Assembly (NCBI RefSeq): GCF_027942865.1 | Contig: NC_134524.1 | Location: forward strand, 4,388,036-4,452,035 | Length of the DNA: 64,000 bases | Source: Odontesthes bonariensis | Taxonomy: Eukaryota; Chordata; Actinopteri; Atheriniformes; Atherinopsidae | Reading direction: 5' to 3' | Shown: piece by piece, positions 32,991 to 56,500 of the stretch | Layout: every line of letters begins with the position of its first letter | Position numbering within the stretch: the stretch's first letter is position 1 | The notes under the pieces: generated by a model | Databases searched by the model: none | Told to the model about the DNA's origin: nothing | What the model saw: the letters and a program-made list of their open reading frames with translations, nothing else | Translations under genes and position numbers: made by a program

Positions 32991-33491
32991 ACCGTGTTCA
33001 TTATTCATGTTTTATGGGATAAATAAGCTGTTCTCGTGGTGGCTTTTACCAAAGCGTCGGCAGACGGCTACAGCTAAACCTGCTGAACAAGATGTCAGGT
33101 GCATGATCGTTGTCATTGTCACGCCATCGTGGCACCAGCTGCAGAAGCCAATAGAAATGTAGAACGGCTGAGGCTGTGTACTTAAATGAACACGGAACAA
33201 GGAAGATTTCCATTTCAACGACCGCCCAGTTGGATTGAAAAGAAGCTCAGCCCGTCTTAGATTTGCATTCACTCCACAAGGTGCGTGAGGTCGTCACTTC
33301 TATCTGATTTTACAGACTGAAGCCAAGGTAAGACTAAAGCTTTCTCTTCAAGTTCAAGTCCAACTTTAAAGTCACTTTTTTCCCCTGAATTTAGTTCAAC
33401 ATGTTTTTTTAAAGATGCTGAAATCAGAAGGAAGGATTCAGTATTATCTTTGACTTTATCGACACCTCTGATTGTTTCATCTGTGCTACAG

Positions 33492-33590
33492 ACCGTCAGC
33501 GTCGGAGCTCTCGGTGCCCAGCGTTGTTTTTACAGCCTGAAAGTTTGACGAGAGGAACCTGCTGAAACCTGCAGAGCCTGCTGAAACCTG
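33492..33590 (+). pseudogene. FAM111 untranslated exon 2, unit A copy
   Basis: Acceptor TGTGCTACAG precedes the exon and GTGAGTCGGC follows. It is 8 bases longer than the unit B and C copies because GCTGAAACCTG-like text is repeated at its end. No coding exons follow it in this unit. Confidence 0.5.
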
Positions 33591-33888
33591 GTGAGTCGGC
33601 AGTTTTTACTGACTCCTTTCAACAGATTAATGTTTCAACTGATCCACGTTAATGTCTGTTAAGTTTAAAAAAACACCACACAGATTGTTTCAGGCTGTGT
33701 CAGGGTTAAACCTGTCATCAAATATGTATCGGGCTAAATAATATATCTCCGCTACACAAAGTTCCAGTTCTATCGTTCTCAATCGATAAATTATAGTTTT
33801 TGTGTTCTTCAAAGAGTTTGTTCTAACATAAAAACAACAGAACTTTTGAAGTGTATTTTCTTTCCTCTAAATAATGTTTGGCAACAAT

Positions 33889-34399
33889 CAGGGCCGGCCC
33901 AAGCCTTTATGGGGCCTTAAGCAGAATTTCATTTGGGGCCCCCCTACCATCACCTCAGCTCCAGATGCCTCATTATTCCACAGGCTAAACTGTTATGTGT
34001 GTAACGGACCCACAATCATTAGCATTATTTGTAATCCTCTTACATTATACAGGTGTCATTCTTGTTTTTAACCTTAAAGGGAAAGCAAACTCATAAATAT
34101 GGTTTAATTAACTTCTACATAAAGAGTGATGTATAAGTATGGCTCATTAATTTAACTATTTGAAAGTAACATCAGCAGGCTGGAGACTGCATTTATAGTA
34201 AACATGTTAAATAGTTTAATTTCTTTCAGATGTGCAATGGTGTGCAAAATGTCCAAAATACAAATACAAAATAGAATCAAATGACATCTTACAGAAAAAT
34301 AAAGTTGTAATAAAATTAAATTCAAAATTGCTCTCGGGGCCCCCTGGTGGCGTGGGGGCCCTAAGCGACCGCATAGTTGGCATATGCCTTGGGGCTCTG
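33889..34399. mobile_element. hAT-type element 8 in unit A (CAGGGCCGGCCC ends)
   Basis: Starts CAGGGCCGGCCCAAGCC and ends TTGGGGCTCTG, flanked by GCAACAAT (33,881-33,888) and GCAACAAG (34,400-34,407). The same element sits at the same place in unit C, so it was inserted before the units were duplicated. Confidence 0.85.
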
Positions 34400-35235
34400 G
34401 CAACAAGTCAAGTATTTTGTGTGTTTCGTCCTTTTCACTCACACAGAGCTGTGTTGCTGCATCGCATTCCTTTTCTCGCAAATGGAAACTTAAGGCAGTA
34501 ATTTCTGGAAATGGGTCACATGGTTTGTGATGTCATGCAGGGCTTGCATAGAGCTGTGCATGCAGTGACATGCGGCTTCACTTAGGTCCGGGGCCCGGGG
34601 GTTGGGGACCGCTGCTCTACAGGACCTTTTAGCTGAGAAAACAACTTGTTGAACATTTATATCGTTGTCTTCCTCGCCATGCTGGACTCTACCTGTTGGA
34701 CTCTTGCTCAATAAAAATGTTTGAGCAATACCATCTCATTGTTGCATCAGTTTATGAAGCCACGAGAGAGCAAAGGCGACTGAAAAGAGCTCCCAGCTTG
34801 ATTCAGTAGCAGGTAAACGTGCCTGAAAGTAAAAAGCAGACGTCGGAGAGGACTGTTTGAAATTAATGAGAGAGTTTCTGTGCCTTTGAATGTTTTGCTT
34901 TGGATTATCTTGAGATAAAAGTTTGGCCATTTTTATTGTGACGCTTCAGCTTTCAGCTGAATCTGAGTAGAACAAATATCCAACTGTAATTCCTGTGTGA
35001 CTGAGTGTAACTGAAAACCAGGCAACACGCTGCCTACAGGTGTGTTACAGATGATGTAACTTTTACTGTTCAAAGTCCACAACATACTTCTTTTTTCTTC
35101 CAGGCAAACATTGCTGTTCCAGAGTTGCTCAGCCTTTTTTGAACAAATTAATGTTTCAACTGACCCACGTTAATGTCTGTTAAGTTTAAAAAAACACCAC
35201 ACAGATTGTTTCAGGCTGTGCCAGGGTTAAACTAT

Positions 35236-36304: not shown

Positions 36305-36362
36305 GTATATATGAGATGACATACTCATATATATAATTTTTATATATATATATATATATATA
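36236..36362. repeat. (TA)n microsatellite
   Basis: Nearly uninterrupted TA dinucleotides with a short break around 36,303-36,340. Confidence 0.9.
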
Positions 36363-36472
36363 TAATTTTTGAGGTTACTGTTGGTCAGCATTTTGATTTA
36401 AAGGATTTTATAAGCAGAAAATGTGTTTTCCATTAGGTTCTAAAGTCAAGAGCAAACACCGACTGCAACAAG

Positions 36473-37392
36473 ATGACACAGACTACAATTGGGTAACAAA
36501 TATATTTAGCGACATTTTTTAAAATTTTCTCTGATTCTTCATTTAATCCCCTTTATCGATGTACTCTGTTGTATGAAAAATTCTTTGCAGGTTTGGACGC
36601 CACAATGATCCCCTTCAAGAAGAAAGTACGCAGCGCCGTGACGCAGAACAGAGACCAGCACTGCCTCTGAAGACGTCCAAGCTCTTACCATCAGAGTGTG
36701 TGTTTGTGCCTACAGAAGAGGAGCAGGAATTACTCACAAGCTTATCTGTAACTTTAGAACAAGCTCATGAAATTGAGGAGAGAACACGTGAGCAAAGCCA
36801 TTATCCTAAATGGCATGAGCGCCGTAGAACCAGGGTGACCGCCTCTACGTTTCGTGAGGTGTGTCATTTCACAAGTGACGAGACTGCCGAATCAGGGATA
36901 AAACGCATAATACAGACAGTGAACCCGACAGAAGACATGCAGAGAGGTCTTAAGAAGGAGCCTAAAATAATAGCTGAGTATAAGAAGCTGATGAATGTTA
37001 CCTGTTACCCCTGTGGTCTTGTCATTCATCCTGACACCCCTTGGCTTGCTGCTTCCCCCGATGGCGTTGTTTTCGACCGCGATGAAAAGCCAACATTTGG
37101 CCTCGTTGAAGTCACATCCACCAAGAAGAAAAAGTTTGCAGAGTGTAAGTACATAGAAGGAGAAAATGAGCCTTATCGTCTTAGGGAGAACAGTCGATAT
37201 TACTGGCAAGTGCAGGGACAGCTGCTCATCACTGGGATGCAGTGGTGCGACTTTGTTGTCTGGGCCAAGGATGATTATCTCATATTACGAATACGTACCG
37301 ATGAAACAGTGCAAAGGGAAATCAGACAGAAAGTTGACCCTTTATTTTTCTACAAATACATGCGAATTTACCTGTCTTGGAAAAGAGAATAA
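36473..37392 (+). CDS. YqaJ/lambda-exonuclease-like protein, copy A
   Basis: Two exons are proposed: 36,473-36,492 (MTQTTIG, donor GTAACA) and 36,591-37,392 after acceptor TTCTTTGCAG, joined in frame to give 273 residues. The protein has the layout of the YqaJ-type recombinase/exonuclease fold (PD-(D/E)xK superfamily): W81-H-E-R-x-x-R near the N-terminus, G126-x3-E130, S-P-D164-G, L-V-E180-V, and Y-W-Q213-V-Q-G-Q217. The lysine normally two residues after the glutamate is Thr182 here, so catalysis is uncertain. In this family the enzymes resect double-stranded DNA 5' to 3'. Its cellular role in fish is unknown. It may be part of a larger mobile element or a domesticated host gene. Confidence 0.7.
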
Positions 37393-37424
37393 GAAAACAT
37401 GGCTGAAGGAAACCCCCAGAGATG

Positions 37425-37890
37425 GGGACTCGAGTCACTGTGACTTGGACTCAAGTCGACTCGAGTCGCTGTTTTGAAGACTTGTGACTTGACTTGACAT
37501 AAAATAAAAGACTTGAGACTCGACTCGGACTTGGAAGTTAAAGACTCGGCACTTGACTTGAGACACGATGACTTGAATGACTTGAGTGTTAAGCATCTAG
37601 CATAACTTCGAACTTTGTTCGTCATTTTAAGATCCATTCTGACCAGTAAGTGCTCGTCAAATTAGCTAATATTATCCTGTTAGCCTAGCCGGTAGTTAGC
37701 TAACGTTAGCTTGATATGATACGGGGTGGACAGGTTGGACACATTGGCCAATGATGTTTACTGACAGTTACTTATATCTTTACTTATAACTTTATTAAGA
37801 TCAGATTCTGCAGGTAAAATTGCAATAATAAGGTGACTTGACTTGACTTGCCAAAGAAAAAATTACTTGGGACTTGCACATGCCGGCTAC
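37425..37890. mobile_element. GACTTGA-rich miniature element downstream of YqaJ copy A
   Basis: Starts near CAGAGATGGGGACTCGAGTC and ends near TTACTTGGGACTTGC. Both flanking regions are dense in GACTTGA and GACTCGA words in alternating orientation, as in a known style of teleost hAT miniature element. An equivalent copy follows YqaJ copy B (46,465-46,930). Confidence 0.6.
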
Positions 37891-38846
37891 ACACTTCCCA
37901 CTTCCTGCATATTGTTGCTCGATTGTTTAGGCTTCACCTCTGATGACTCTTCACACTCTCAAATGATAAAAACGTGATTAAAACATGCATTAAACAGACG
38001 ATGCTATGAATTGCTTTTAAAACACTGCATTTTAAATAAAATATGAAATGTTTAGGCTCGTCCAGCCCTTAATGGTTTGTGTCATGTTTCCTGGTTTCTG
38101 TTGAAGTTTCTGGTTTTGGTTTAGTTGTGTGATTTTTGTTAAGTTTTGACTTTTACTTATATATAACTGGAGTGGGGGACTGGATTGTGTCGTGGTAAGA
38201 TTGCCACCTTTCATGTGGGTGATCTGGTTTTGAATCCTTGCTGTAGCAACTGCAGTTTAAATATCAATTAAAGTATTTTCTCTGCCTCACCTGCCTCCTG
38301 TGTCCTGCATTTTGTTTCACTCGTGCAGTTCCACACAGCAGTTTGGACCGTCACAGGTACATATGTAAGTGCTTTGAGTAAGAAATTAAGTGCTTTTCAC
38401 ACAAGCACCATCCTCCTAAGGTCCCGAAACACTGATTTTATAACGGTAACCTGCGCTCGATCCATATTTAAATCACGAAAAATGACATTAAAGAAAATCT
38501 ATGGTTGAAACTCCATATGTTTGAGGTAGACTTTGAACTTAAATATATAAATACAAAACACTTTAAATACATTTTCATTGAGAAAATCAATTCAATAATT
38601 GTTGATTAAACCCAGAAGGCAACAACTTAGCTGATGATGTCACACACATCAGGCCAATCAGACACTCATCAAGAAAGTCAATGAAAACTTTTTAAATTTT
38701 TATTATAAAGCAACAACAAAAGCTTAATGAAATAGGAAAACTTTGGTCATGTCGTGTTTGTTTAATTATTCCAGTTTATGTTGGTTTAGTAAAATATTAT
38801 TCGCCGCACAAACAATCGCATTTAACAGACGATTATAAGTTTTATT
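37891..38846. other. Downstream spacer of unit A
   Basis: Nearly identical to 46,931-47,896. Its last 190 bases (about 38,655-38,845) also match 59,055-59,185, the spacer just upstream of fga. This ties the duplicated units to the FAM111-fga interval. Confidence 0.65.
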
Positions 38847-39150
38847 TAGGGCTGGGCTAGTTAACTCGTTACTATCGCGTTAACTCGTTAATTATTTAAC
38901 GCCGATACATATTTTATCGCGCATTAACGCAGGTTTTATTTATTTATTTAAATCTTTTTTTTATTTATCTTAAATTTAAAAAATAATTAGGTAAATAAAA
39001 AAAATTGGCAGAGAGAGGGGGAACAACATGCAGCACAGGGCCGTTCGATGCGGAACCTGAACCGGGGCCAGCTGCAGCGAGGACTATAGCCTCTTTTCAT
39101 GGGGCGCCTGCTCAACCCACTACGCCACGGACCCCCCCTGTTTTATTATT
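38847..39150 (+). mobile_element. hAT element 4, truncated left half (unit A)
   Basis: Starts TAGGGCTGGGC and runs through the SINE piece, but breaks off after CTGTTTTATTATT. The identical breakpoint occurs at 48,180 in unit B, so the truncated element was duplicated with the unit. Confidence 0.85.
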
Positions 39151-39489
39151 GGGGCCTGCCATAGCATTGCATAGGAGAGCAGTGCCTCCATGCAAATGCA
39201 TGGCAAGGCACCTATTACTATTCCGTTGGCAAAAGTCTATGGGATTTAACATTGAAAAGGGGTCTCTTTATTTATTTATAGATTTACATATTTATTCCTC
39301 CGTCCACATTCACCTCTTTAAAGGGACAGTTCGCCGCTTTAAATTTTTAAATTTAAACGGCTTTGATGCCGTTTAGGCTTGAATGCTTCTTCTTTAGACC
39401 TTGCGAACCATTCCTGAGCAGCCGTGATTGGTTGAGCGATACGCACACTTTGGCAGGCCCCTTCTAAATTTCTTCAGAAATTTTCTAGT
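39151..39489 (+). mobile_element. Helitron-like segment ending in hairpin plus CTAG
   Basis: The right edge carries AAATTTC-TTCA-GAAATTT, a hairpin, followed by TCTAG and then T (39,466-39,489). This is the 3' arrangement of Helitrons. The left edge is not defined; GGGGCCTGCCA at 39,161 and TGGCAGGCCCC at 39,451 are inverted. A lone copy of the 21-bp satellite unit lies at 39,317-39,340. No Rep/helicase is present. Confidence 0.55.
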
Positions 39490-39627
39490 AGATATATTTA
39501 TTCTTCCGTCCACATTAATGCGGGCCCATCCCAACAATATATATATATATCAAAACGACCGACTCGATGAGTTTTCGCAGGCTATTAATTTTATTGAAAA
39601 TTGGAGTTACCATGGCGACTTAATAAG

Positions 39628-39749
39628 CAAAAAACAGTCCCCCAAAGCCCCGCTGGTGACCCCCCATGACTACATGCTGTCCCTGTCCAGCGGGGAGCTG
39701 AACGGCAGCCTGGCCAACACCATCACCAGCTTCGTGGACAAAGGAAAAG
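39628..39749 (+). pseudogene. gdf5: gdf5-like exon fragment with splice donor
   Basis: Translation contains APLVTPHDYMLSL, then SSGELNGS, and LANTITSFVDKGK. This matches the end of exon 1 of the GDF5/6/7 branch of BMP prodomains (T-P-H-x-Y-M-L-S-L and A-N-T-I-T-S-F-x-D-K-G). The residues usually found between (Y-R-T/W-x-L) are deleted, so the product would be abnormal. The fragment ends exactly at a GTAAC donor in phase 1. It is flanked by Helitron-like ends and by the satellite at 39,779, and no other gdf5 exon is nearby. A captured gene piece is the best explanation; GDF5 is the closest member by eye. Confidence 0.75.
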
Positions 39750-39778
39750 GTAACTGCCCCTTTTTCACTAGTGGGGCA

Positions 39779-40680
39779 TTAAAGGGACAGTTCGCCTCAT
39801 TAAAGGGACAGTTCGCCTCTTTAAAGGGACAGTTCGCCTCATTAAAGGGACAGTTTGCCGCTTTGAAGGGACAGTTCGCCTCTTTAAAGGGACAGTTCGC
39901 CTCATTAAAGGGACAGTTTGCCGCTTTAAAGGGACAGTTCGCCTCTTTAAAGGGACAGTTCGCCTCATTAAAGGGACAGTTCGCCTCTTTAAAGGGACAG
40001 TTCGCCTCTTTAAAGGGACAGTTCGCCTCATTAAAGGGACAGTTCGCCTCTTTAAAGGGACAGTTCGCCTCATTAAAGGGACAGTTTGCCGCTTTAAAGG
40101 GACAGTTTGCCGCTTTAAAGGGACAGTTCGCCGCTTTAAAGGTACAGTTGGCCGCTTTAAAGGGACAGTTCACCTCTTTAAAGGGACAGTTCGCCGCTTT
40201 AAAGGCACAGTTCGCCTCTTTAAAGGGACAGTTCACCGCTTTAAAGGGACAGTTCACCTCTTTAAAGAGACAATTCGCCGCTTTAAAGGGACAGTTCGCC
40301 GCTTTAAAGGGACAGTTCGCCTCTTTAAAGGGACAGTTCACTTCTAAAGGTACAGTTGGCCGCTTTAAAGAGACAGTTCGCCGATTTAAAGGTACAGTTG
40401 GCCGCTTTAAAGGGACAGTTCACCTCTTTAAAGGGACAGTTCGCCGCTTTAAAGGCACAGTTCGCCTCTTTAAAGGGACAGTTCACCGCTTTAAAGGGAC
40501 AGTTCACCGCTTTAAAGGGACAGTTTGCCTCTTTAAAGGGACAGTTCGCCGCTTTAAAGGGACAGTTGGCCGCTTTTAAGGGACAGTTGGCCGCTTTAAA
40601 GGGACAGTTCGCCTCTTTAAAGGGACAGTTCGCCTCTTTAAAGGGACAGTTCGCCTCTTTAAACGGACAGTTTGCAGTTT
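39779..40680. repeat. 21-bp satellite built on TTAA plus a transposon end
   Basis: About 43 head-to-tail copies of a 21-base unit, TTAAAGGGACAGTTCGCC plus CTC/A or GCT. The first 18 bases equal the outer tip, TTAA included, of the TTAA-flanked element at 6872-8756. Variants (GTTTGCC, GTTCACC, GGTACAG, GGCACAG) are interspersed, and one 118-bp block at 40,141 recurs at 40,391. The unit is a multiple of three without stops, which explains the long open frames in three readings. Confidence 0.95.
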
Positions 40681-40736
40681 GAGCGATACGCACACTTTGG
40701 CAGGCCCCTTCGAAATTTCTTCAGAAATTTTCTAGT
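40678..40736 (+). mobile_element. Second Helitron-like 3' end
   Basis: A direct copy of 39,432-39,489 (TTTGGCAGGCCCCTT, then hairpin GAAATTTC-TTCA-GAAATTT and CTAG at 40,732-40,735 followed by T). Together the two copies bracket the gdf5 fragment and the satellite. Confidence 0.7.
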
Positions 40737-41315
40737 TTGTTTTACTCTTCCACAAACCTCTGCTGGCGTAGGCTATAACTTGAGGCTTCCCACCTTGCTC
40801 TTGATTCAGAGCGGCTCCCAGACATGAAGAGGAAGCATCTAATTGTAGTATATGGTGGATCCACAAAAGGGAAGAATGGGGGCAAATGTTAACTTGTTAA
40901 CTCACGCTCGGATGTCCACTCTGCATCAAAGGGGGCGCAAGGTTTACACAGTCCTCGTTCATTTGTATAGTTCATCTTTTTGGCTGGATTATTCATCAGT
41001 GAGATCATTGAGGAGCTTGATGATCTTAGGTTAGGCTTCCACCAAACCAAGGAGACTCTTCAGCTCCTCTCAGTTCTTAGAACGTGGTATTTTACATGAT
41101 TAAAAGAACTGACACTTCTCGTGGGACAATTTCAGACGCTAGTCCTCGAGATGGTGTAGCACCTCCATGAGCCTGAGCTCGTGCTAGTTGAGGGTCTCGG
41201 AGAAAGACAACGAGGTGATCTAAAGACACACCAACTCTGCTTGGATGGCGTTCTCCAACACACTTTTTAATTAGGCCCTGGAAAGTACTGGAAGTGTTGC
41301 TCACATCTTTTGGTC
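40737..41315. other. Spacer with no recognisable gene
   Basis: No conserved motif or terminal repeat recognised. Confidence 0.45.
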
Positions 41316-41323
41316 TACATTAG

Positions 41324-42374
41324 TAGGGATGGGAATTGTTAAGAATTTAGCAATTCTGGTTCCATTATCGATATCTTTATCAATTCGGTTCCTTGTTGGT
41401 TCTCTTATCGATTCTCATCCAGCTATGTAAAGTACAAATTGCTTTGGTTGCAGTAACACTTTAACACATTGACTCCCAAGTCACGTAAAACTACGTTTTT
41501 ACTGCCCATGCGTTGGCTCCCAAATGGTAAAAATACGTTTTTACGTTTTTTTTATGGATTCTGAATCTATACATTCTTAGAATCCCTCCACCTACTTGGT
41601 GGTTTTATGAACATGTAAACTCCTTTGACACAAGGACACGACGCAAATCCTCTGACCTGGATATGTAAGTATCTAAAGTGCGACAGGCTGAAAGAGCGCA
41701 CGTTTCACAAAAGCCCCAATATCTCAGTTTGTTGTTGATTTTGGTGGATACCCACCTTGGTTTAGCTAAGGATAGCTCGCTAATGGCGGCACCTAGAGAC
41801 ACGCAGTTTTGACCCACAACGAGTTTAAAGTCTCAGCTTTCAAACGAGCCATAACATGTTTCAGTGGCCCTATCACATAATATGCTGTGACTGTACAAAA
41901 AACGTAAAAAAAAAAAGGTTTAGAACGCTGGGAGTCTACGACATAATTCCGTAAACACCGCCGGTATTCAATGTGTTAATTTCAATTATGCACCAGCATT
42001 TAATCTATGTCCACCTCTGTCATCGCTTAGCAGCGTGTCAAAGACTTTACATTCGTGCAAAGTAGCTGCATGCTGTGTGGTCAAATGTTTCTGCATGTTG
42101 GAGGTATTTCCCCCTTTGATGTGATCACAGCTCTGCACGTGTCGCAGCTGGCCCTAGTATTGTCCTTTTGGGTGAAATACAACCAAACTTTGGAACGCTT
42201 CTGCCTCGACGCCATGTTAGAAACATTCTGAGCCAAAATGCGAAGCTTGCACATGATGTCATCGCGCAAATGCGTCAGACGTTAGCAGAACCTATAAACG
42301 GGATCGTTAGGCAGGCGGATTAACGATTCTGCAGAATCGAACTACTGGGAGCCGGTTCTCGATTGCCATCCCTA
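41324..42374. mobile_element. hAT-type element 5, copy 2
   Basis: Ends TAGGGATGGGAATTG and GCCATCCCTA are flanked by TACATTAG (41,316-41,323) and TACATCAG (42,375-42,382). It has the same subterminal CGATTC/GGTTC words as copy 1, with about 200 bp more interior. Confidence 0.85.
42081..42269 (-). pseudogene. BED-finger fragment of hAT element 5, copy 2
   Basis: The frame includes RSKVWLYFTQKDNTRASC and DTCRAVITSKG, so W, F and the C-x2-C pair of a BED finger are intact. The histidine pair is lost by frame change after SKGE. Confidence 0.65.
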
Positions 42375-42714
42375 TACATCAGAACTCCTATAAGCCCAAC
42401 GGACATGCAAATGCTGTGGAACCTGTTGGGTGTAGTTCAGTTGCTTTGGATTACAGCCAGGTAAGCTGCTTTTCATATTAAGGACTATTGTACACGGGCC
42501 TGTTTCTCAGCTGTGGAAGAATAACACCAACCTTTGAATGCTGCTGTATGACAGCTCAGACACCCATTAGGGTCGTCCCTTCAATTGTATTATTTTGACT
42601 GAAATAGGTTCTCATTGATGTCAAATTCATACTCTGGATGCCCAGAGAAACATGATGCCCATTAAAAAACCACACCAAAACCATAGTTGTCGGCTACAGT
42701 CTAAACAATATGCC

Positions 42715-43312
42715 ATTGTCACGCCATCGTGGCACCAGCTGCAGAAGCCAATAGAAATGTAGAACGGCTGAGGCTGTGTAATTAAATGGACACGGAACAA
42801 GGAAGATTTCCAATTCAACGACCGCCCAGTTGGATTGAATAGAAGCTCAGTCCGCCTCAGATTTGCATTCACTCCACAAGGTGCGTGAGGTGAGGTCGTC
42901 ACTTCTATCTGATTTTACAGACTGAAGCCAAGGTAAGACTAAATCTTTCTCTTCAAGTTCAAGTCCAACTTTAAAGTCACTTTTTTCCCCTGAATTTAGT
43001 TCAACATGGTTTTTTAAAGATGCTGAAATCAGAAGGAAGGATTCAGTATTATCTTTGACTTTATCGACACCTCTCTGATTGTTTCATCTGTGCTATAGAC
43101 CATCAGCGTCGGAGCTCTTTGTGCCCAGCGTTGTTCTTACCACCTGAAGGTTTGACGAGAGGAACCTGCTGAAACCTGCAGAGCCTGAGGTGAGTCGGCA
43201 GTTTTTACTGACTCCTTTCAACAGATTAATGTTTCAACTGACCCACGTTAATGTCTGTTAAGTTTAAAAAAAACACCACACAGATTGTTTCAGGCTGTGT
43301 CAAGGTTGTGAC
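42715..43312 (+). repeat. Duplicated unit B: FAM111 5' region
   Basis: Matches unit A from CATTGTCACGCCATCGTGGC onward. The first noncoding exon ends at 42,932 (AGCCAAG then GTAAGA). The second is 43,099-43,189 (acceptor TGCTATAG, donor GTGAGT). Homology stops at about 43,312, close to a Harbinger insertion. No FAM111 coding exon follows in this unit. Confidence 0.8.
43099..43189 (+). pseudogene. FAM111 untranslated exon 2, unit B copy
   Basis: Same length (91 bases) as the unit C copy. Orphaned unless spliced across the interval to unit C. Confidence 0.45.
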
Positions 43313-43642
43313 AGGAGTACAATATACATATATATTGTAAGGTACATATAGGTTGAAACATTGGGCCTCATGCAAGTACATTTTCGTATTTTTATTCTAA
43401 ATTTCTCTCACTTTTTTCGTATGAAGGTCTCGTACGAACACGCCACGTCAGATTCAACAAACGCTCTTAACTTCGGAAAAAGTGTGTAAACGACCTGCGT
43501 AAATGATGAATCACACCTGTGCGTATCTAAGTTCACGTGCACGAGGATACAGTAGTAGATTTGCATACTCCACGCCCTAAATTATACCAATGTAAGGCTG
43601 TGCTTCCTCGCTCCTATGCCAGGAAGTGTTGAGTGTTAAGTC

Positions 43643-43920
43643 ATGAAAATGACATCAAGGCGCAAAAAGAACAACTTTAGGGGCTCTGAGATTGAAATTC
43701 TGCTTTCAGAGATCCAAAAAGGAAAATCTGTCATTTTTAGCAGTGTAAGCAGTGGACGGGACCTGCTAAAGCGAAGAAATGGGAAGCAATTAGTGCTATT
43801 GATACCATGTCACCTGTAGTTCGTAATGTCACCGAAATAAAAAATAAATGGTTTGATATGAAAATGGCTTAAATAAAACGTCTCGCCATGGCCAGGCGAT
43901 CGATGGCTGCAACTAAAGCC
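43643..43920 (+). pseudogene. Harbinger Myb/SANT-like DNA-binding protein, broken
   Basis: Starts MKMTSRRKKNNFRGSEIE and continues LLSEIQKGKSVIF. A frame change near 43,745 leads into KQWTGPAKAKKWEAISA and EIKNKWFDMK, then a stop. The order (F-x-x-S-E-I-E-x-L, then W-E-x-I-x-x-x-V, then K-W-x-D-x-K) is that of the Myb/SANT-like accessory protein needed for Harbinger transposition. One frameshift and an early stop disable it. Confidence 0.7.
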
Positions 43921-44089
43921 GTGCAATCAGCTGTTGCCTCATCATGATGGCTCTTTGATGGGGCGGTCCATGGGGGGGGTCTTCTGGCACCACACTTTCT
44001 GGTCTGCCTGGGCTGGTTCAGGTGGAGACCCTCGTTCATGGCAATATTGCGCCATGAACGAGGTATCGAGACACACCCACCTGGCCTTC

Positions 44090-44541
44090 AGCTCAGTGCG
44101 CTCCACAACAGCACGGGTGCTTTGATGCGTATATGTGTGCAGTCTATTGCTCCAATTATGATTGGCAGTCCAGCCACGGGATGAAAGTCCCTCTTAATTT
44201 GTACTTGTTGGACAGCGGCGTATGGGAATCTGATGTACCATGGGTGATAACCTGATGAGAGTTTTGATGACCAAGGGGAGCGCACGACTCACAGAGGACT
44301 GGGACACCCCCGATCTGTCTCCAGTCTCCCTCTGAAAGGTTCCAGTGGCCAAAAATCCAAGGGTGGTGACCTGGACGTGTGGTGGAATTGGGTTTGATCG
44401 GCGTGTTTCTCTCTGGAGTTGTGGCTCTAGCAAGCTGCATATTTGCAGCAGCACAGTCCTTTGGAATCTTAATCGCGATGTCAGCCATTCGTCTGTCTCC
44501 ACATGGATATCTACACGGTCTCTTCCAAGAGCCTGACGCAC
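44090..44541 (-). pseudogene. HARBI1-like transposase N-terminal half, frameshifted
   Basis: The minus-strand frame from 44,541 reads RLRFQRTVLLQICSLLEPQL and LGFLATGTFQRETGDRSGVS, followed by a frame change near 44,250 to YIRFPYAAVQQVQIKRDF and GLPIIIGAIDCTHIRIKAP. The last piece carries the first catalytic Asp of the DDE triad (G-A-I-D-C-T-H). The rest of the catalytic domain is missing because the element has an internal deletion, so it cannot transpose alone. Confidence 0.85.
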
Positions 44542-45060
44542 TAAGGCATCCGAAAGTAGAAAGTCAGCCGCTGGTTACACTTCCTATTGACCTTGTTATA
44601 TACAGATTCAAATGAACCTTCAATTAGTGCACAATTTAAGTCAAACAGAATAATGTCAGCATAATTATGGGGTATAATGTATATTTATTTATGTTTTCTT
44701 CAAAGTAATTAAATATACAATCCATTAGTCAAGCAAACGTGATTTGAATAACAGCGGACTATTTTGGGAAACTCCTACGACAGGTCTGGATCGCTCGTAA
44801 ATTCTGTTTGTACCTGAAAGAAAACGTAAAATACGAAAAGATTGGTGAATGCGCAAATTCTCTTAAATCACTCGTACGGACGATTTAAGAACAAATCTGT
44901 GCGTACGAACGCTTCTTGCATGAGGCCCATTGAGTTTGAGTGTGTGTGTGTGTTGCAGAGGGGGAGGTTCACATGGGAGTAGGCGTGTGTGCGTAAAGGT
45001 GTAGACTCACCGGTGACACAGGTGTGAGAGTCAGGGTTGGGAGTAGCCATAATTTTGTTG

Positions 45061-45138
45061 ACCGCCACGCTACGCCACGCCACGCCACGCCACGCCACGC
45101 CACGCCACGCCACGCCACGCAACGCCACGCCACGCCAC
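45061..45138. repeat. Pentanucleotide (CCACG)n microsatellite
   Basis: About 15 units of CCACG (read ACGCC in another phase) with two single-base changes. Confidence 0.9.
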
Positions 45139-45379
45139 ATTTATTCATTCATCACCTTATGTTTCCGTTTAATCCGCTGGTTTTCATCTTTACATTAATC
45201 CATATTTGCTGCGCTGTGATAACTCTGTGCGGTTTGATTATAATAAATGAAACAAAAGCATATCTTGGATCTCAGCGTATCTCTTGCCATAAACCAGTAG
45301 CGCGTCACAAATAAAGGAACCTAAGGACCCAACCTTAAACTCTGAGCGGCTAAAAGGTTTGTGTTGGAAGCCGCAACAT

Positions 45380-45406
45380 ATTTATATATATATATATATA
45401 TATATA
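45380..45406. repeat. Short (TA)n tract upstream of YqaJ copy B
   Basis: Counterpart of the longer TA run upstream of copy A, marking the left border of the homologous segment. Confidence 0.8.
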
Positions 45407-45514
45407 ATTTTTGAGGTTACTGTTGGTCAGCGTTTTGATTTAAAGGATTTTATACGCAGAAAATGTGTTTTCCATTAGGTTCTAAAGTCAAGAGCAAGCA
45501 CCGACTGCAACAAG

Positions 45515-46434
45515 ATGACACAGACTACAATTAGGTAACAAATATATTTAGCTACATTTTTTAAAATTTTCTCTGATTCTTCATTTAATCCCCTTTATCG
45601 ATGTACTCTGTTGTATGAAAAATTCTTTGCAGGTTTGGACGCCACAATGATCCCCTTCAAGAAGAAAGTACGCAGCGCCGTGACGCAGAACAGAGACCAG
45701 CACTGCCTCTGAAGACGTCCAAGCTCTTACCATCAGAGTGTGTGTTTGTGCCTACAGAAGAGGAGCAGGAATTACTCACAAGCTTATCTGTAACTTTAGA
45801 ACAAGCTCACAAAATTGAGAAGAACACACGTAAGCAAAGCCTTGATCCTGAATGGCATGAGCACCGTAGAACCAGGGTGACCGCCTCTACGTTTCGTGAG
45901 GTGTGTCATTTCAGAAGTGAGAAGACTGCCGAATCAGGGATAAAACGCATAATACAGACAGTGAACCAGACAGAAGACATGAAGAGAGGTCTTGAGATGG
46001 AGGCTGTAATAATAGCCGAGTATGAGAGGCTGTTGAATGTTACCTGTTACCCCTGTGGTCTTGTCATTCATCCTGGCACCCCTTGGCTTGCTGCTTCCCC
46101 CGATCGCGTTGTTTTCAACCGGGATGAAGAGCCAACATTTGGCCTCGTTGAAGTCACATCCACCAAGAAGAAAAAGTTTGCAGAGTGTGACTATATAGAA
46201 GGAGAAAATGAGCCTTATCGTCTTAAGGAGAACAGTCGATATTACTGGCAAGTGCAGGGACAGCTGCTCATCACTGGGATGCAGTGGTGCGACTTTGTTG
46301 TCTGGGCCCAGGGTGATTATCTCATATTACGAATACGTACCGATGAAAGAGTGCAAAGGGAAATCAGGCAGAAAGTTGACCCTTTATTTTTCTACAAATA
46401 CATGCGAATTTACCTGTCTTGGAAAAGAGAATAA
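45515..46434 (+). CDS. YqaJ/lambda-exonuclease-like protein, copy B
   Basis: Same two-exon structure as copy A: 45,515-45,534 and 45,633-46,434, giving 273 residues with no stop or frameshift. The N-terminal W-H-E, G-x3-E and Q-V-Q-G-Q motifs are kept. The otherwise invariant S-P-D-G is S-P-D-R here (Gly165 to Arg), and Thr replaces the catalytic lysine as in copy A, so nuclease activity is doubtful. By hand count, about 29 of the last 230 residues differ from copy A, concentrated at residues 67-85, 100-107 and 124-141. Intact length despite these changes suggests either recent duplication or selection for a noncatalytic role. Confidence 0.68.
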
Positions 46435-46464
46435 GAAAACGTGGCTGAAGGAAACCCCCAGAGA

Positions 46465-46930
46465 TGGGGACTCGAGTCACTGTGACTTGGACTCAAGTCG
46501 ACTCGAGTCGCTGTTTTGATGACTTGTGACTTGACTTGACAAAAAATAAAAGACTTGAGACTCGACTCGGACTTGGAAGTTAAAGACTCGGCACTTGACT
46601 TGAGACACGATGACTTGAATGACTTGAGTGTTAAGCATCTGGCATAACTTCGAACTTTGTTCGTCATTTGAAGATCCATTCTGACCAGTAAGTGCTCGTC
46701 AAATTAGCTAATATTATCCTGTTAGCCTAGTCGGTAGTTAGCTAACGTTAGCTTGATATGATACGGGGTGGACAGGTTGGACACATTGGCCAATGATGTT
46801 TACTGACAATTACTTATATCTTTACTTATAACTTTATTAAGATCAGATTCTGCAGGTAAAACTGCAATAATAAGGTGACTTGACTTGACTTGCCCAAGAA
46901 AAAATTACTTGGGACTTGCACATGCCGGCT
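46465..46930. mobile_element. GACTTGA-rich miniature element downstream of YqaJ copy B
   Basis: Equivalent of 37,425-37,890, with about ten single-base differences. Confidence 0.6.
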
Positions 46931-47896
46931 GCACACTTCCCACTTCCTGCATATTGTTGCTCGATTGTTTAGGGTTCACCTCTGATGACTCTTCACACTC
47001 TCGAATGATAAAAACGCGATTAAAACATGCATTAAACAGACGATGCTATGAATTGCTTTTAAAACACTGCATTTTAAATAAAATATGAAATGTTTAGGCT
47101 CGTCCAGCCCTTAATGGTTTGTGTCATGTTTCCTGGTTTCTGTTGAAGTTTCTGGTTTTGGTTTAGTTGTGTGATTTTTGTTAAGTTTTGACTTTTACTT
47201 ATATATAACTGGAGTGGGGGACTGGATAGTGTCATGGTAAGATTGCCACCTTTCATGTGGGTGACCTGGTTTTGAATCCTTGCTGTAGCAACTGCAGTTT
47301 AAATATCAATTAAAGTATTTTCTCTGCCTCACCTGCCTCCTGTGTCCTGCATTTTGTTTCACTCGTGCAGTTCCACACAGCAGTTTGGACCGTCACAGGT
47401 ACATATGTAAGTGCTTTGAGTAAGAAATTAAGTGCTTTTCACACAAGCACCATCCTCCTAAGGTCCCGAAACACTGATTTTATAACGGTAACCTGCGCTC
47501 GATCCATATTTAAATCACGAAAAATGACATTAAAGAACTGAAGTAAATCTATGGTTGAAACTCCATATGTTTGAGGTAGACTTTGAACTTAAATATATAA
47601 ATACAAAACACTTTAAATACATTTTCATTGAGAAAATCAATTCAGTAATTGTTGATTAAACCCAGAAGGCAACAACTTAGCGGATGATGTCACACACATC
47701 AGGCCAATCAGACACTCATCAAGAAAGTCAATGAAAACTTTTTAAATTTTTATTATAAAGCAACAACAAAAGCTTAATTAAATAGGAAAACTTTGGTCAT
47801 GTCGTGTTTGTTTAACTATTCCAGTTTATATTGGTTTAGTAAAATATTATTCGCCGCACAAACAATCACATTTAACAGACGATTATAAGTTTTATT
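46931..47896. other. Downstream spacer of unit B
   Basis: Matches 37,891-38,846 nearly base for base. The last part also matches the sequence upstream of fga near 59,055-59,185. Confidence 0.65.
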
Positions 47897-48180
47897 TAGG
47901 GCTGGGCTAGTTAACTCGTTATTATCGCGTTAACTCGTTAATATTTTATCGCGCATTAACGCAGGTTTTATTTATTTATTTAAATCTTTTTTTTTTAAAT
48001 TTGAAATTTAAAAAATAATTAGATGAATTAAAAAAATTGGCAGAGAGAGGGGGAACAACATGCAGCACAGGGCCGTCCGATGTGGAACCTGAACCGGGGC
48101 CAGCTGCAGCGAGGACTATAGCCTCTTTTCATGGGGCGCCTGCTCAACCCACTACGCTACAGACCCCCCCTGTTTTATTA
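47897..48180 (+). mobile_element. hAT element 4, truncated left half (unit B)
   Basis: Same element and same breakpoint as 38,847-39,150, with a small deletion after TTAACTCGTTAAT. Confidence 0.85.
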
Positions 48181-48221
48181 TTGGGGCCTCAACTCTAGGC
48201 TGTCGCTAGGTGGTTGAACGC

Positions 48222-48514
48222 ATTGATATGAAGGGAGAGAAAATAGCTCCAAGCGATATGAGGTCTGACTTTTTCGTGGAGAACGATTTCGTGATGCATA
48301 TGTATTACTCTTTTGAACGCATATTGGTTTGAGAAGCAAAACGCTTTATTTTTTAAACCCCAGCCAACTAGCCGGACTACTTTCGTCAACGCCAAAACGA
48401 GGCTGGAACTCTGCTCACAGGACGCAGCAGGGGGTAAGAAGATGTTCATAAATGATGTTGCTGATATGGGATGTCATACAGCTTCATGTCAAAAGAGGCG
48501 AACTATCCCTTTAA
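48222..48514 (+). mobile_element. Single right arm of the TTAA-flanked inverted-repeat element
   Basis: Matches 8457-8756 and ends GGCGAACTATCCCTTTAA. No partner arm is nearby. Confidence 0.85.
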
Positions 48515-48776: not shown

Positions 48777-48880
48777 CTGCGGGTCCAGATGTGATGAGAA
48801 GGAATTAATGAATGTGACACGCTGAATGAAGACGATCAGTTTGAGTTTTACGTACCGTCGCGTTCTTCCCAGATGAAGCC

Positions 48881-50148: not shown

Positions 50149-50297
50149 TTTTATTATGATTAGCCAAAGTCATTAAAGGCTTTTTAATTTAATACCTTCT
50201 TCCTGTTCTACTTTTGAGTGCCTGGGACTTATTTCTTTTCGATCCAGTATTATCTTTGACTTTATCGACACCTCTGCTTGTTTCATCTGTGCTACAG

Positions 50298-50388
50298 ACC
50301 GTCAGCGTCGGAGCTCTTTGTGCCCAGCGTTGTTCTTACAGCCTGAAGGTTTGACGAGAGAAACCTGCTGAAACCTGCAGAGCCTGAG
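50298..50388 (+). other. FAM111 untranslated exon 2 (unit C)
   Basis: Acceptor GTGCTACAG and donor GTGAGTCGG bound a 91-base exon conserved in all three units. It probably forms part of the 5' UTR of the FAM111 gene, spliced to 53,535. Its conservation with flanking splice sites is the support; transcript data would be needed to prove it. Confidence 0.5.
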
Positions 50389-50686
50389 GTGAGTCGGCAG
50401 GTTTTACTGACTCCTTTCAACAGATTAATGTTTCAACTGACCCACGTTAATGTCTGTTAAGTTTAAAAAAACACCACACAGATTGTTTCAGGCTGTGTCA
50501 GGGTTAAACCTGTCATCAAATATGTATCGGGCTAAATAAGACATCTCCGCTACACAAAGTTCCAGTTCTATCGTTCTAAATCGATAAATTATAGTTTTTG
50601 TGTTCTTCAAAGAGTTTGTTCTAACATAAAAACAACAGAACTTTTGAAGTGTATTTTCTTTCCTCTAAATAATGTTTGGCAACAAT

Positions 50687-51197
50687 CAGGGCCGGCCCAA
50701 GCCTTTATGGGGCCTTAAGCAGAATTTAATTTGGGGCCCCCCTACCATCACCTCAGCTCCAGATGCCTCATTATTCCATAGGCTAAACTGTTATGTGTGT
50801 AACGGACCCACAGTCATTAGTATTATTTGTAATCCTCTTACATTATACAGGTGTCATTCTTGTTTTTAACTTTAAAGGGATAGCAAACTCATAAATATGG
50901 TTTAATTAACTTCTACATAAAGAGTGATGTATAAGTATGGCTCATTAATTTAACTATTTGAAAGTAACATCAGCAGGCTGGAGACTGCATTTATAGTAAA
51001 CACGTTAAATAGTTTAATTTCTTTCAGATGTGCAATGGTGTGCAAAATGTTCAAAATACAAATACAAAATAGAATCAAATGACATCTTACAGAAAAATAA
51101 AGTTGTAATAAAATTAAATTCAAAATTGCTCTCGGGGCCCCCCGGTGGCGTGGGGGCCCTAAGCGACCGCATAGTTGGCATATGCCTTGGGGCTCTG
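50687..51197. mobile_element. hAT-type element 8 in unit C
   Basis: Same element as 33,889-34,399, with a perfect duplication GCAACAAT at 50,679-50,686 and 51,198-51,205. Confidence 0.88.
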
Positions 51198-51700
51198 GCA
51201 ACAATTCAAGTATTTTGTGTGTTTCGTCCTTTTCACTCACACAGAGCTGTGTTATTGCATCGCATTCCTTTTCTCCCAAATGGAAACTTAAGGCAGTAAT
51301 TTCTGGAAATGGGTCACATGGTTTGTGATGTCATGCAGTGCTTGCATAGAGCTGTGCATGCAGTGACATGCGGCTTCACTTAGCTCACCACATCGTGACT
51401 GTTTCTGGGTTCTGTTCAAGCTGTGATGCTGAAATGCTCTACAGGACCTTTAGCTGAGAAAACAACAAACTTGTTGTTTGAGCAATGCCATCTCATTGTT
51501 GCATCAGTTTATGAAGCCACGAGAGAGCAAAGGCGACTGAAAAGAGCTCCCAGCTTGATTCAGTAGCAGGTAAACGTGCCTGAAAGTAAAAACAGACGTC
51601 AGAGAGGACTGTTTGAAATTAATAAGAGAGTTTCTGTGCCTTTGAATGTTTTGCTTTGGATTATCTTGAGATAAAAGTTGGGCCATTTTTAGTGTAGTCT

Positions 51701-52148
51701 GTGAATAGTTCAGTTCTTCTAGTACCACTCCCATTTTCTTTAGGCAACTGTCTTGATAGCAAAGTGACTCAGAGGTATTTCAAAGCCACAGCAGATGATT
51801 TACTGAAATGCTTAATTGTGCATACACTTAGCCATCTATACTGGTGATGTAACAGCTCTAATTTAGCTTTTTCTTCCACTTTTGGCACCTTGACGTTGTG
51901 TCTATCTCTGAGCGTTACTGACACGATTTAAGTGTGCAACAGAGGTCCGTTTTCATCAGCTAGTGTTAGCACAGTGATACAAATTCATTCTAAAGTTGTT
52001 AAACTACAACATTAATGTTGAGTAAAATCAAGACTGAAGTTTGAAGATTTTGAGGAAGAAATGTTCCTAAAACTGAATCTTGGTTAGGAAGGAACTGTTA
52101 AATGAAGAGGATGACTCATCACTACAACCCAAAACTGACTCAGTCTTA
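51701..52148. other. FAM111 first-intron spacer
   Basis: No motif recognised. It belongs to the block missing from unit A. Confidence 0.4.
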
Positions 52149-52705
52149 GGTGCTGTTTACACATACCCGGGTATTTTGATAAACGAAGACCTTTCCCTTC
52201 GTTTGTGCCTTTCGTTTATACACAAACAGAGTTTTTTCCTCCGAAAACGAGGCATAAAAAAAACTCCGGCAAAAGTGGAGATTTTTTAAAAACTCTGTTT
52301 AGCGTTTGTGTGTAAACTGGTTGAAAGAGACAAAAATGGAGTTTTGGGCAATTGAGAATGAGGAGTTGTCGTCATAGTACAGAGCCCCGCCCCTATCCGC
52401 CATGTTGGCAGGAGTCCACACACATGAGCCTGGCGCCATACTTTCTTCTTGAAAAGGATCCGGAAGTTCTTCCTGTCAGCAGTTCTCTATTTGGCTTCTG
52501 ATTGGCTTGTGTGGAATTCTCATTGTTCTAACATTGCCACCGTCAGGCTTGGCGTAATTTAACAGCTCTTGATAGCGTATTTATGCGGATCAATGTAGAT
52601 GTGTTTTTTTTTTTTAAACGGGGCTGTGTGCACCAAGTTATTTTTGCAAGCGAAGGTTAGAAAATATGAGTTTATCAAAATACCCGGGTATGTGTAAACA
52701 GCACC
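52149..52705. mobile_element. Miniature inverted-repeat element (GGTGCTGTTTACAC ends)
   Basis: The ends are inverted over about 36 bases: GGTGCTGTTTACACATACCC on the left and GGGTATGTGTAAACAGCACC on the right, both continuing through GGGTATTTTGATAAA. A short interior mentions no known gene. Flanks TTA and TGA may be a 3-bp target duplication, pointing weakly to Harbinger. Confidence 0.85.
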
Positions 52706-53559
52706 TGAGGCCTTTCAGAGACTTTGAGGCAGTTGTCACCACCTTGACATTTTCAAGTATTTCAACTAACTGTAAACATCTATGCAAAAGTGACACATAT
52801 GGTTGTATTCTGAAAAGCCTAACAAAAAACAATATGAGAGTGAAGTGAATGTAATACAAACAAGTTTTATTTAAATTGAGGGGAAACACAACTGTACAAA
52901 AAAACAAGTTTTAGAGGTCTTCAAACAGTGCAAGAAAACACACTATAAATATATCTAGCCAAGACTTTTGAAGGTTGAACCTTGTAAACAAAAGTGTTGG
53001 CTGCATAAAAGTAAAAAGTGCAGTCAGAAATGTTTTGTTGTTTCCACACAAACTGTAAAAAAGTCATTGTAACTCCAGGCAGTGTCTCTGTTAGTTGAAT
53101 ACTAATTAGATGGGTGTGTAACACCCCTGATTGCCCCCACCCCCCTGTCACTCTCCATGTGATAAAGTGTGTTTATGCTGGCTGAATGGGGCGTGTTCTC
53201 ACCTGTGAATAGCCACTCAATCACCTGGTACTTTACATGTGAATAGCGATAGGTGTGGCCTAGGAGGCTGCTGCAGTTAGAGAGTACAGGAAATCCAAAG
53301 ATTTCTGTTCACTCTCTTTAAAAAGGGCCAGCTATATCATTTATTTTAATATATATATATTTGAAAAGTAGAAGTTTCAAGGTTTTTAATGGTGTCACTT
53401 ATATGTTTGAATGACAAAAACTCACAGAGTTACAGATGTGTTTTTGGAGACGTGTCAAAAATCCCGCCGGCGAGTTCTTAGACTCCAGAAGAGCTGAGAC
53501 TATCTGTCATTGAAACGTGATGATTTCTTTTCAGAATACATCTGTATACATCTGGAAAC

Positions 53560-56500
53560 ATGGCAGAAGGAAACACCAGCTCCAGGGTAAGCAAAAGGGT
53601 AATGTTTCCTAAAAATGATGGAAGAGTTAAGTTTTTTTCTGTACACTAAAACGCCAGTTTCATAGCTAATCTCAGGAAGTGTTATGCATATCCAACTGTA
53701 ATTCCTGTGTGACCGAGTGTAACTGAAAACCAGGCAACGCGCTGCCTACAGGTGTGTTACAGATGATGTAACTTTTACTGTTCAAAGTCCACAACATACT
53801 TATTTTTTCTTCCAGGCAAACATTGTTGTTCCAGAGTTGCTCGGCCTTTTTTTTACTTTGTTTCTTTTTTTTATTTGTTTCTTTTGAACAGTCTAATCAC
53901 CCATTAGTGTAGTTTACTCTAGAGAAACTAGTTTGTTTGCTGCTTATAACAGGTTTATGCCAGCCACTGTATTATGTGTCCTACCAATACAGAAGGGGGG
54001 ACAATATGGGTCCAAGTGACAGGGAGACCTTGGTCACAATACAATATGACTATAATATGACAGCTTCTGTCTCTCAGCGGGCAGTAGCTCCATTGGCACC
54101 CATCAAAATTTCTTGAGCAATTTTCTAGTTTTCTAGTTTTCTAGTTTTCTACCGTTTCACTAGGTCTTTCCTTAGGTTTAGCCATCTCAGCTACCAGCCT
54201 GTTCTCACTCTTAGCTCCTCACATCCTGGGTGTCAGAACACTTTCATCTTGGCTAACTTAAGTGTAGTTTTCGGTAAATATTGACCAATAATGTGCATTG
54301 ATTACTACACTGACTATGTATTTTATCAACATTTTTCTTTTTTGGAGCGGCAGAGACACATTTATCACCGTTTTAAATCCACAAGATCCTCTACGAGGTA
54401 CCCTCCACAGTAAATTATTTTAAAGAAGATTTAAATGACTTTGAGGGAAATATGTGGCTGTAGATGCTTTGACTGATGAGCCGGGATGAATTCTTCTTTT
54501 CTGTAAAAGACATAATTGTTCTATATTTCTCATGTGAACTGAATACATACATCTGTAACCCTGTTTATTGTGCTTCAAGTCAGAAAACTATTGTAAAATA
54601 TGAATTAATTGATTAAAATATTAATCTAAACTTTTTTTCTGATTAAAACCATATTATTGACAAAATAAATGTGTCGTAGGCCCAACTAGACGAAACACTG
54701 ATGAAAGGAGGTTCCCACCTGATGACCCCAATGACATGTTGGTCAGCACGGCTCACTATATCTATATAGGGAGTATAGGGAATTATTCACTGGTCTGGTC
54801 CATTTTTTTTTCTTTAGCACAAGTTTATTCTGTTTACCTTAAATCCAAATCTAGCCTAGCTAGTGACTGAATAGGGCAGCTGACAACAAGGGACCCTGGG
54901 GTCGTAACAAGGATGTAGAGGATTTGTTGCAAAGTCTGTTGTCTCATTGTTGAGGGAGCTGGGTGTAAGTGGACAGAGTGTGAGGAAAATAGTGAAGGAA
55001 GTGTCAGATGAGGCAGTAAAGTCTAGTCAGTGGATTTGGATTAGAAGAAGCAATAGTAGCTGGGGGCCCAGCAGGGGGAGCACTTAGGGAGCACTAAGGG
55101 TCCTTCTGTTACCCCTCCTCCCCCCTAGTGAGGAGTTAAACAGTTTGACGGCACGGGGGACGAAGGAGTTCCTCAGTCTGTTGCACTAGGGGAGAAGCAG
55201 CCTCTTGCTGAACAGGCTTCTCTGGCTGCTGATGACAGTGTGCAGAGGGTGGCTGGCATTGTCCAGAATAGCCAGGAGTTTGTGCATTGTTCTCCACTCT
55301 GCCACTGTCGCCAGAGGGTCCAGCTTCGTGCCAACCATGGAGCCAACAGAACTGGTCTAGGACTAGGTCTGTCCCTCAAAAAGTCGATGACCAGTTCCTT
55401 AGTCTTTGAGGTGTTGAGCTGCAGATTGTTCATGTGGCACCACACAACAAAGTTCCTCACCAAGCTCCTCTACTCCTCCTCTTTGTCATCTCTGACGTCA
55501 CTGTAGGGGCAGTGTTGATCTGGGGTTGCTGCAGTTGGTCAGGTCTAGATTCAGCAACATTACGTGCCCAAAGAATGAGGACAGCTGACGACCTGAATAT
55601 ACTGAATAGTTATTCCATCAGTGGATTTTCACTTCCCATATGGCTCAGGTATATTCCAAGATGACAATGCCAGGATTCATGGGGCTCAAATTGTGGAAGT
55701 GGTTCAGGGAGCATGATGGATTGGCCCCCACAGAGTCCTAAATCCATTTGAGAATCCGTCTCTTCCATCGTCACTACAAGATCTTGGCGAAAAATGAATG
55801 CAACTCTGGACGGAAATAAATGTTGTGACAACAGAATCTGCAGAATCTTATCGAAACAATGCCACAGCGAATGTGTGCTGTAATCAGAGCCGAAGGCGGT
55901 CCAACACAATATTAGAGCGTGGGACTTTTTGTTTTGAACAGGCAGTTTATTTGAACTTTCTCAAAATCTAAATCTCTCTCTTGCTTTGCAGAAGGCTCAA
56001 AAGAGGGTGAAGGAGGAGTCCACAAAGGATGCTGTTTCATCGGTGAGTGCACTCACTGTCATAAATGCTGCATAAGCTGTGCTTTTATTGTACTATAACC
56101 TTCATTTTCTCTTCTGATTCCCTGCAGGGAAAACATGAACATCGCTTCAAAGTGAAATTCGGTTCAGATGACCAGAAATACACCATTGACTGTCATCAAC
56201 CACAAACATTGCTGGAGGCCATAAAATTCCATCTAGCAGATGAGTTCAATGAAAAGATAAAGGGAACAGATGAGAACATTTACATTAGGTTGGGTGAAGG
56301 GGCCGATGCGTCTCTTCTTGCAACAAATTTTCCTTGTTGTTGTGTTGACGAAGATGAATGTCTGACCATACGTTCATCAAAAAGGGTTATAGAGGCCCAA
56401 AACCAAACAAAGTACCGGCTCCAAGAGAAAGAACATTACTGTGTATTCTATATTGAAAATGTGGGAGGGAAAGACAGTAAATCCAAGGCAAAGCAGATCT

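Follow-up and report, generated by a model that had tools for sequence, protein, structure and literature searches.

A duplicated YqaJ gene pair with transposon kinship and charge-changing divergence beside a FAM111-like gene in Odontesthes bonariensis: a candidate for diversifying selection

Lambda exonuclease forms a trimeric ring, and host genes derived from transposons are known. The present analysis concerns two neighbouring YqaJ genes, YqaJ-A and YqaJ-B, which lie in a 64,000-nucleotide stretch of the Odontesthes bonariensis genome (C24:4388036-4452035; hereafter the window), where they form part of a small tandem cluster next to a FAM111-like protease gene. A YqaJ open reading frame (ORF) together with a DDE transposase and a THAP protein is the coding content given for ISL2EU transposons in two reports (PMC4482050, PMC9179366), and FAM111A is described in a third as an inhibitor of poxvirus replication in human cells (PMC13245274). 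The window pair has lost the catalytic lysine of its exonuclease fold, and its two members have diverged by amino acid replacements that exceed the divergence of their own flanks and mostly alter charge. The pair may be a co-opted, probably cleavage-deficient derivative of an ISL2EU element under diversifying selection, a reading to which an even chance is given.

Catalytic site and transposon kinship of the YqaJ pair

The PF09588 matches of the two copies reached 70.0 and 70.8 bits against a curated cut-off of 22, and the predicted fold of both is the lambda-exonuclease fold, matching the toroidal lambda exonuclease. Relative to the lambda exonuclease/LHK-Exo group (6m9k, 1avq, 3syy), the E-x-K motif reads E-x-T in both window copies, which recalls the crystallised K131A mutant of this group (3sm4), and the SPDG motif reads SPDR in copy B. 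The window proteins are half as long as the herpesvirus alkaline nucleases (EBV 2w45, KSHV SOX 3fhd; PF01771), with which they share kinship of fold and not membership.

The catalytic lysine was present in all 52 aligned phage and prokaryotic relatives and in 33 of the 36 YqaJ copies checked in the same genome, the exceptions being the window pair (Thr) and one broken copy at C26:20178042 (L218), where it is replaced by Gln. The 52 relatives derive from an alignment-query search in which 80 loci each were kept from IMG/VR and GTDB (∼ 25–33% identity); 155 of these 160 loci had a usable ORF, and 58 were non-redundant. Single-sequence searches of IMG/VR and GTDB gave no close relatives of the window proteins, and no DNA match was found in phages. 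Because the lysine of E-x-K is lost, the two YqaJ proteins are probably cleavage-deficient, as judged from their sequence.

A whole-genome search by protein, covering the 945-Mb assembly, gave 69 YqaJ matches. Thirty were retrieved; beyond the window pair, the highest protein identities were 60, 60 and 59%. Two copies on C13 (C13:27265552 and C13:28498373; L169 and L170), 1.2 Mb apart, are 99.9% identical over ∼ 8 kb, including flanking retroelement-like ORFs recognised by eye, which points either to a segmental duplication of recent date or to a sequence assembled twice. One of them is adjoined on the opposite strand by a DDE_Tnp_4 transposase, with a sub-threshold helix-turn-helix (HTH) match, and by a THAP domain. 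The window units are 71% identical in DNA to this C13 element over positions 36683-37401 and a short upstream stretch. As in the ISL2EU YqaJ ORF, whose C13 relative stands beside THAP and DDE_Tnp_4, the window genes have a PF09588 domain, a similar intron and a similar splice acceptor, the acceptor of the C13 transposon copy resembling that of YqaJ-A. Unlike that ORF, they are accompanied by neither transposase nor THAP, lack the upstream YqaJ exons, have the catalytic lysine replaced and show at most 60% protein identity. The DDE and THAP proteins of the C13 element had no counterpart in the window (tblastn, best E 0.30 and 0.40), and a Pfam scan of 10 of 179 stop-to-stop ORFs revealed neither DDE_Tnp_4 nor THAP near the pair. 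No terminal inverted repeats stood out in the C13/C28 YqaJ relative. The window genes may thus descend, in truncated and co-opted form, from the exonuclease gene that an ISL2EU-type transposon carries.

Each predicted YqaJ gene has a single intron and 273 codons, the coordinates of copy B being those of copy A plus 9042, and (TA)n is found at the left ends of both units. An acceptor-like TTTTCCATTAG precedes the YqaJ-A upstream exon at 36426-36436 (by eye) and would allow an additional exon farther upstream.

Divergence and charge changes of the YqaJ pair

Divergence was counted on a global alignment of 36336-39200 with 45378-48250. A preliminary description of this DNA had put the differences, counted by eye, at about 37 in the 693-base exon portion (36700-37392) and about 22 in some 1,450 bases of downstream flank, with about five silent changes and both frames open. 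The alignment returned exactly 37 and 22, the latter over the 1,450 bases 37393-38842, without an indel in the coding part, and the spliced 273-codon frames, both intact, contain 33 nonsynonymous and five synonymous differences (dN 0.053–0.055, dS 0.026–0.029). All 37 coding differences fall in one stretch covering nearly the whole YqaJ domain, and the hottest segment by scan statistic (36768-37152) holds 32 differences in 385 bases, with a log-likelihood gain of 21.6 versus a permutation maximum of 11.9 (n = 300). When flank, intron and outer exon were pooled, 27 of 1,868 bases differed (1.45%). Replacements lie above this rate (odds ratio 3.8, p = 5e-7), which is the strong result of the divergence tests; silent changes do not (five in 198 sites, p = 0.23). 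Hypermutation, with its one-way base changes, was set aside, there being 21 transitions and 16 transversions in the coding part and 14 and 8 in the flank.

The preliminary description had offered conversion from a more diverged paralogue as a second explanation. In this scenario gene conversion or recombination would have overwritten the YqaJ domain of one copy with that of a third, since lost or unassembled, making the coding block older than its flanks. The block of differences is indeed sharply bounded (36768-37326), silent changes in the frame are a little more frequent than differences in the flank (p = 0.23, as above), and the flanks look patchy, with a run of 371 bp free of differences (p = 0.03). 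However, the nearest other copy found by protein search of the assembly is the 60% relative, so no extant donor was found. Moreover, an excess of dN over dS together with a charge bias (see below) is not expected of a donor that was constrained or drifting neutrally, and other YqaJ pairs show no such bias. Conversion is considered unlikely.

Pairwise GY94 likelihood analysis of the spliced frames gave an omega of 2.48 (likelihood ratio test, p = 0.042), and codons 66-273 alone gave 2.25 (p = 0.075). A branch model for the pair and six relatives of the same genome, on a tree imposed by hand, gave an omega of 1.90 on the A and B branches versus 0.175 in the background (p = 5.5e-9), a difference large enough to show that the old constraint has clearly been lost. 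For a rate in excess of neutrality, the evidence is the comparison with the flank and the nature of the replacements. When the differences were polarised by the bases of the nearest relative, 14 replacements were assigned to copy A and 10 to copy B, with eight unassignable; the silent changes divided two and three.

The charge of the encoded proteins is affected by 23 of the 30 amino acid differences, and nine of the 30 reverse it. Neutral simulation from the same sequence predicts that ∼ 39% of differences should change charge and 4–7% reverse it; at each of three kappa values none of 5,000 runs reached the observed charge-change fraction, and 0, 0 and 1 of 5,000 reached the observed reversals. 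In an earlier simulation of smaller size, run in six settings, the charge-change fraction had P = 0.0014 in one and P = 0 in the other five, and two amino acid matrices gave concordant expectations (binomial p from 1.4e-4 to 2e-8). Other YqaJ pairs in the genome behave as expected, with 181 of 493 differences charge-changing and 25 of 493 reversing (the pairs are not independent), as do hand-picked non-overlapping pairs (29 and 3 of 88). Six of the ten listed changes in copy A are to Lys. Net charge is −1 in both proteins; residues 60-110 carry −2 in A and +2 in B, and residues 111-145 carry +4 in A and −1 in B.

The loss of constraint could also mean that the two genes are dying transposon fragments in random drift, their changes clustered by chance. 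The absence of the catalytic lysine from both copies and of SPDG from copy B would agree with this, as would the missing transposase, THAP and N-terminal exons, the branch-model omega, which is not significantly above 1, and the broken C26 copy that is likewise without the lysine. The flank rate is the most that drift could produce, and the nonsynonymous changes go beyond it; nor does drift account for the excess of charge changes, for frames with neither stop nor indel, or for the preference of the differences for variable alignment columns (p = 0.025; 3 of 58 well-conserved columns have changed nonetheless). Random drift is accordingly a doubtful explanation. Opposite charge patches at equal net charge, on a fold matching the toroidal lambda exonuclease, might instead insulate the duplicates so that each copy assembles only with itself, a case of subfunctionalisation and not of parasite conflict; this account, in which the patches would have to be in contact, is quite improbable.

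The FAM111-like neighbour and the cluster

The features of the cluster are collected in Table 1. The YqaJ pair lies downstream of copies of a FAM111 5' segment: the 597-base segment 33111-33707 was matched at four places, all within the cluster, and in U3 it stands ahead of the FAM111-like gene. This gene resembles that of the antiviral protease FAM111A; the YqaJ protein is unrelated to it, being encoded by a physical neighbour with only the 5' segment in common. A 90% identical FAM111 paralogue lies ∼ 100 kb away (C24:4546349-4548304; L221:3347-5305, minus strand). The FAM111-like pair shows 76.5 nonsynonymous and 9.5 synonymous differences (omega 3.03, p = 0.001) and several in-frame length differences, and its replacements exceed the divergence of nearby, mostly noncoding sequence (15/511, p = 0.019). 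These values flag the FAM111-like gene as a putative second positively selected gene of the cluster. With omega well above 1 in two unrelated neighbours, a conflict involving the whole locus becomes likelier than an accident of one pair.

Table 1. Coordinates, in window positions, of the YqaJ pair and of FAM111-related features.
Feature	Position	Strand	Remarks
Unit A, duplicated 2.8-kb segment with YqaJ-A	36336..39157	+	self-BLASTN 96.3% to 45378-48189
YqaJ-A upstream exon	36437..36492	+	ATG 36473, donor GT 36493, predicted by eye
YqaJ-A main exon	36591..37392	+	PF09588, TAA end, open frame
Stretch with all 37 coding differences	36768..37326	+	nearly whole YqaJ domain
Thr codon replacing catalytic Lys of E-x-K, copy A	37114..37116	+	
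Unit B, duplicated segment with YqaJ-B	45378..48189	+	self-BLASTN counterpart of unit A
YqaJ-B upstream exon	45479..45534	+	ATG 45515, predicted by eye
YqaJ-B main exon	45633..46434	+	PF09588, TAA end, open frame
Thr codon at matching site, copy B	46156..46158	+	
U1a, copy of FAM111 5' region	33111..35140	+	exon-like stretch and donor, by eye
U1b, partial copy of FAM111 5' region	35138..35232	+	
U2, copy of FAM111 5' region ahead of YqaJ-B	42711..43307	+	
U3, region upstream of FAM111 ORF	50241..53852	+	
FAM111-like protease ORF	56065..58026	+	coding exon probably from 56128; Trypsin_2; FAM111A structures, best E = 2.3e-17

The 22 bases that follow the YqaJ stop codons (37395-37416 and 46437-46458) match the FAM111 start-codon exon at 53556-53577 in 20 and 19 of 22 positions, respectively. 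This match first suggested a fusion; it is possibly due to chance, because a loosely similar sequence also follows the stop codon of the C13 transposon copy.

Several further elements were seen in the window. The first ∼ 465 bp of the YqaJ 3' flank (37417-37882) are a high-copy repeat with 2,354 first-look candidates in the genome; 40 scored matches were ∼ 93–96% identical, and among the matches listed only units A and B extend beyond the repeat. Positions 43362-44933 hold an inserted element, perhaps Harbinger-like, with inverted ends containing GGGCCTCATGCAAG (by eye); neither of the two of its ORFs that were scanned gave a Pfam match. An ORF at 48845-49831 weakly matches GIY-YIG, falling below cut-off at E = 0.003, and may be the terminal part of a Penelope-like retroelement. 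Long artificial ORFs arise from three repetitive stretches (39600-40600, 7100-8640 and 1-1400), and an exon of the Fibrinogen alpha/beta chain family (61931-62215, E = 2.5e-14) likely belongs to the next gene.

Evidence for and against selection, and its meaning

The preliminary description had suggested diversifying selection in a host–parasite conflict. Diversifying selection on the YqaJ pair is likely in view of an omega of ∼ 2–2.5, replacements in excess of the flanks, the charge excess, changes on both branches and the omega of 3.0 in the FAM111 pair; the data come from a single species and fall short of proof, the branch model being the part that did not bear it out. The comparison with paralogues that the preliminary description proposed gave a divided answer. 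Other YqaJ pairs of the genome reach an omega of ∼ 2 without a charge excess, so an omega above 1 is not distinctive on its own, whereas the charge pattern is.

Several points weigh against selection and co-option. The omega of the A and B branches is not significantly greater than 1 (p = 0.16), and the other YqaJ pairs range from ∼ 0.3 to 2, some exceeding 1 (up to 1.95). Nonsynonymous versus synonymous changes, taken alone, give a borderline p of 0.07 (one-sided Fisher test). The choice of neutral baseline is open to argument, since the 5' repeats of the cluster give a higher one of 2.3–3.6% (U1a versus U2, 21/589; U1a versus U3, 27/1,143). At the 3.57% of U1a versus U2, the nonsynonymous excess falls to p = 0.02; it is U1b and not U1a that adjoins copy A, and U1b versus U2, a small sample, differs at four of ∼ 91 bases, also above 1.45%. 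The charge test was picked only after the list of changes had been seen, so its p-values are somewhat generous, and charge changes in the FAM111 pair are ordinary (31/67, with four reversals). At the age of the pair, the probability of zero stops by chance is 0.14–0.18, and that both frames are open says little about function. The Arg of SPDR in copy B, where 46 of 52 relatives have Gly, would fit a decaying gene. That YqaJ is spliced to a FAM111-type 5' exon is a conjecture drawn from the sequences at donor and acceptor.

In the favoured reading, the YqaJ genes kept the predicted lambda-exonuclease fold but lost the lysine, and after a recent duplication diversifying selection altered both copies, mainly through charge swaps. 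The proteins, presumably expressed and inactive as nucleases, would most likely act by binding, through a changing surface on which the replacements would lie, to DNA ends or to the YqaJ or alkaline-exonuclease rings of a parasite. They could serve as a decoy or a dominant-negative subunit, and the parasite could be ISL2EU itself or a DNA virus. Host–parasite conflict may be what drives the divergence. A bolder version is rather unlikely. It would see a vertebrate cleavage-dead defence protein, made from a transposon exonuclease and duplicated into a FAM111 antiviral locus with the 5' segment, whose charge reversals track or evade a parasite exonuclease, FAM111 and YqaJ forming one rapidly evolving defence cluster.

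No report of a lysine-less, open, duplicated and charge-reversing YqaJ gene in an antiviral-protease cluster was found in the open-access papers searched, most subscription papers lying outside the search. If real, the pair would represent a natural dead-exonuclease factor and would provide a simple, testable pair of proteins with which to ask what fast charge switching is for; in addition, FAM111 is flagged as positively selected in this lineage.

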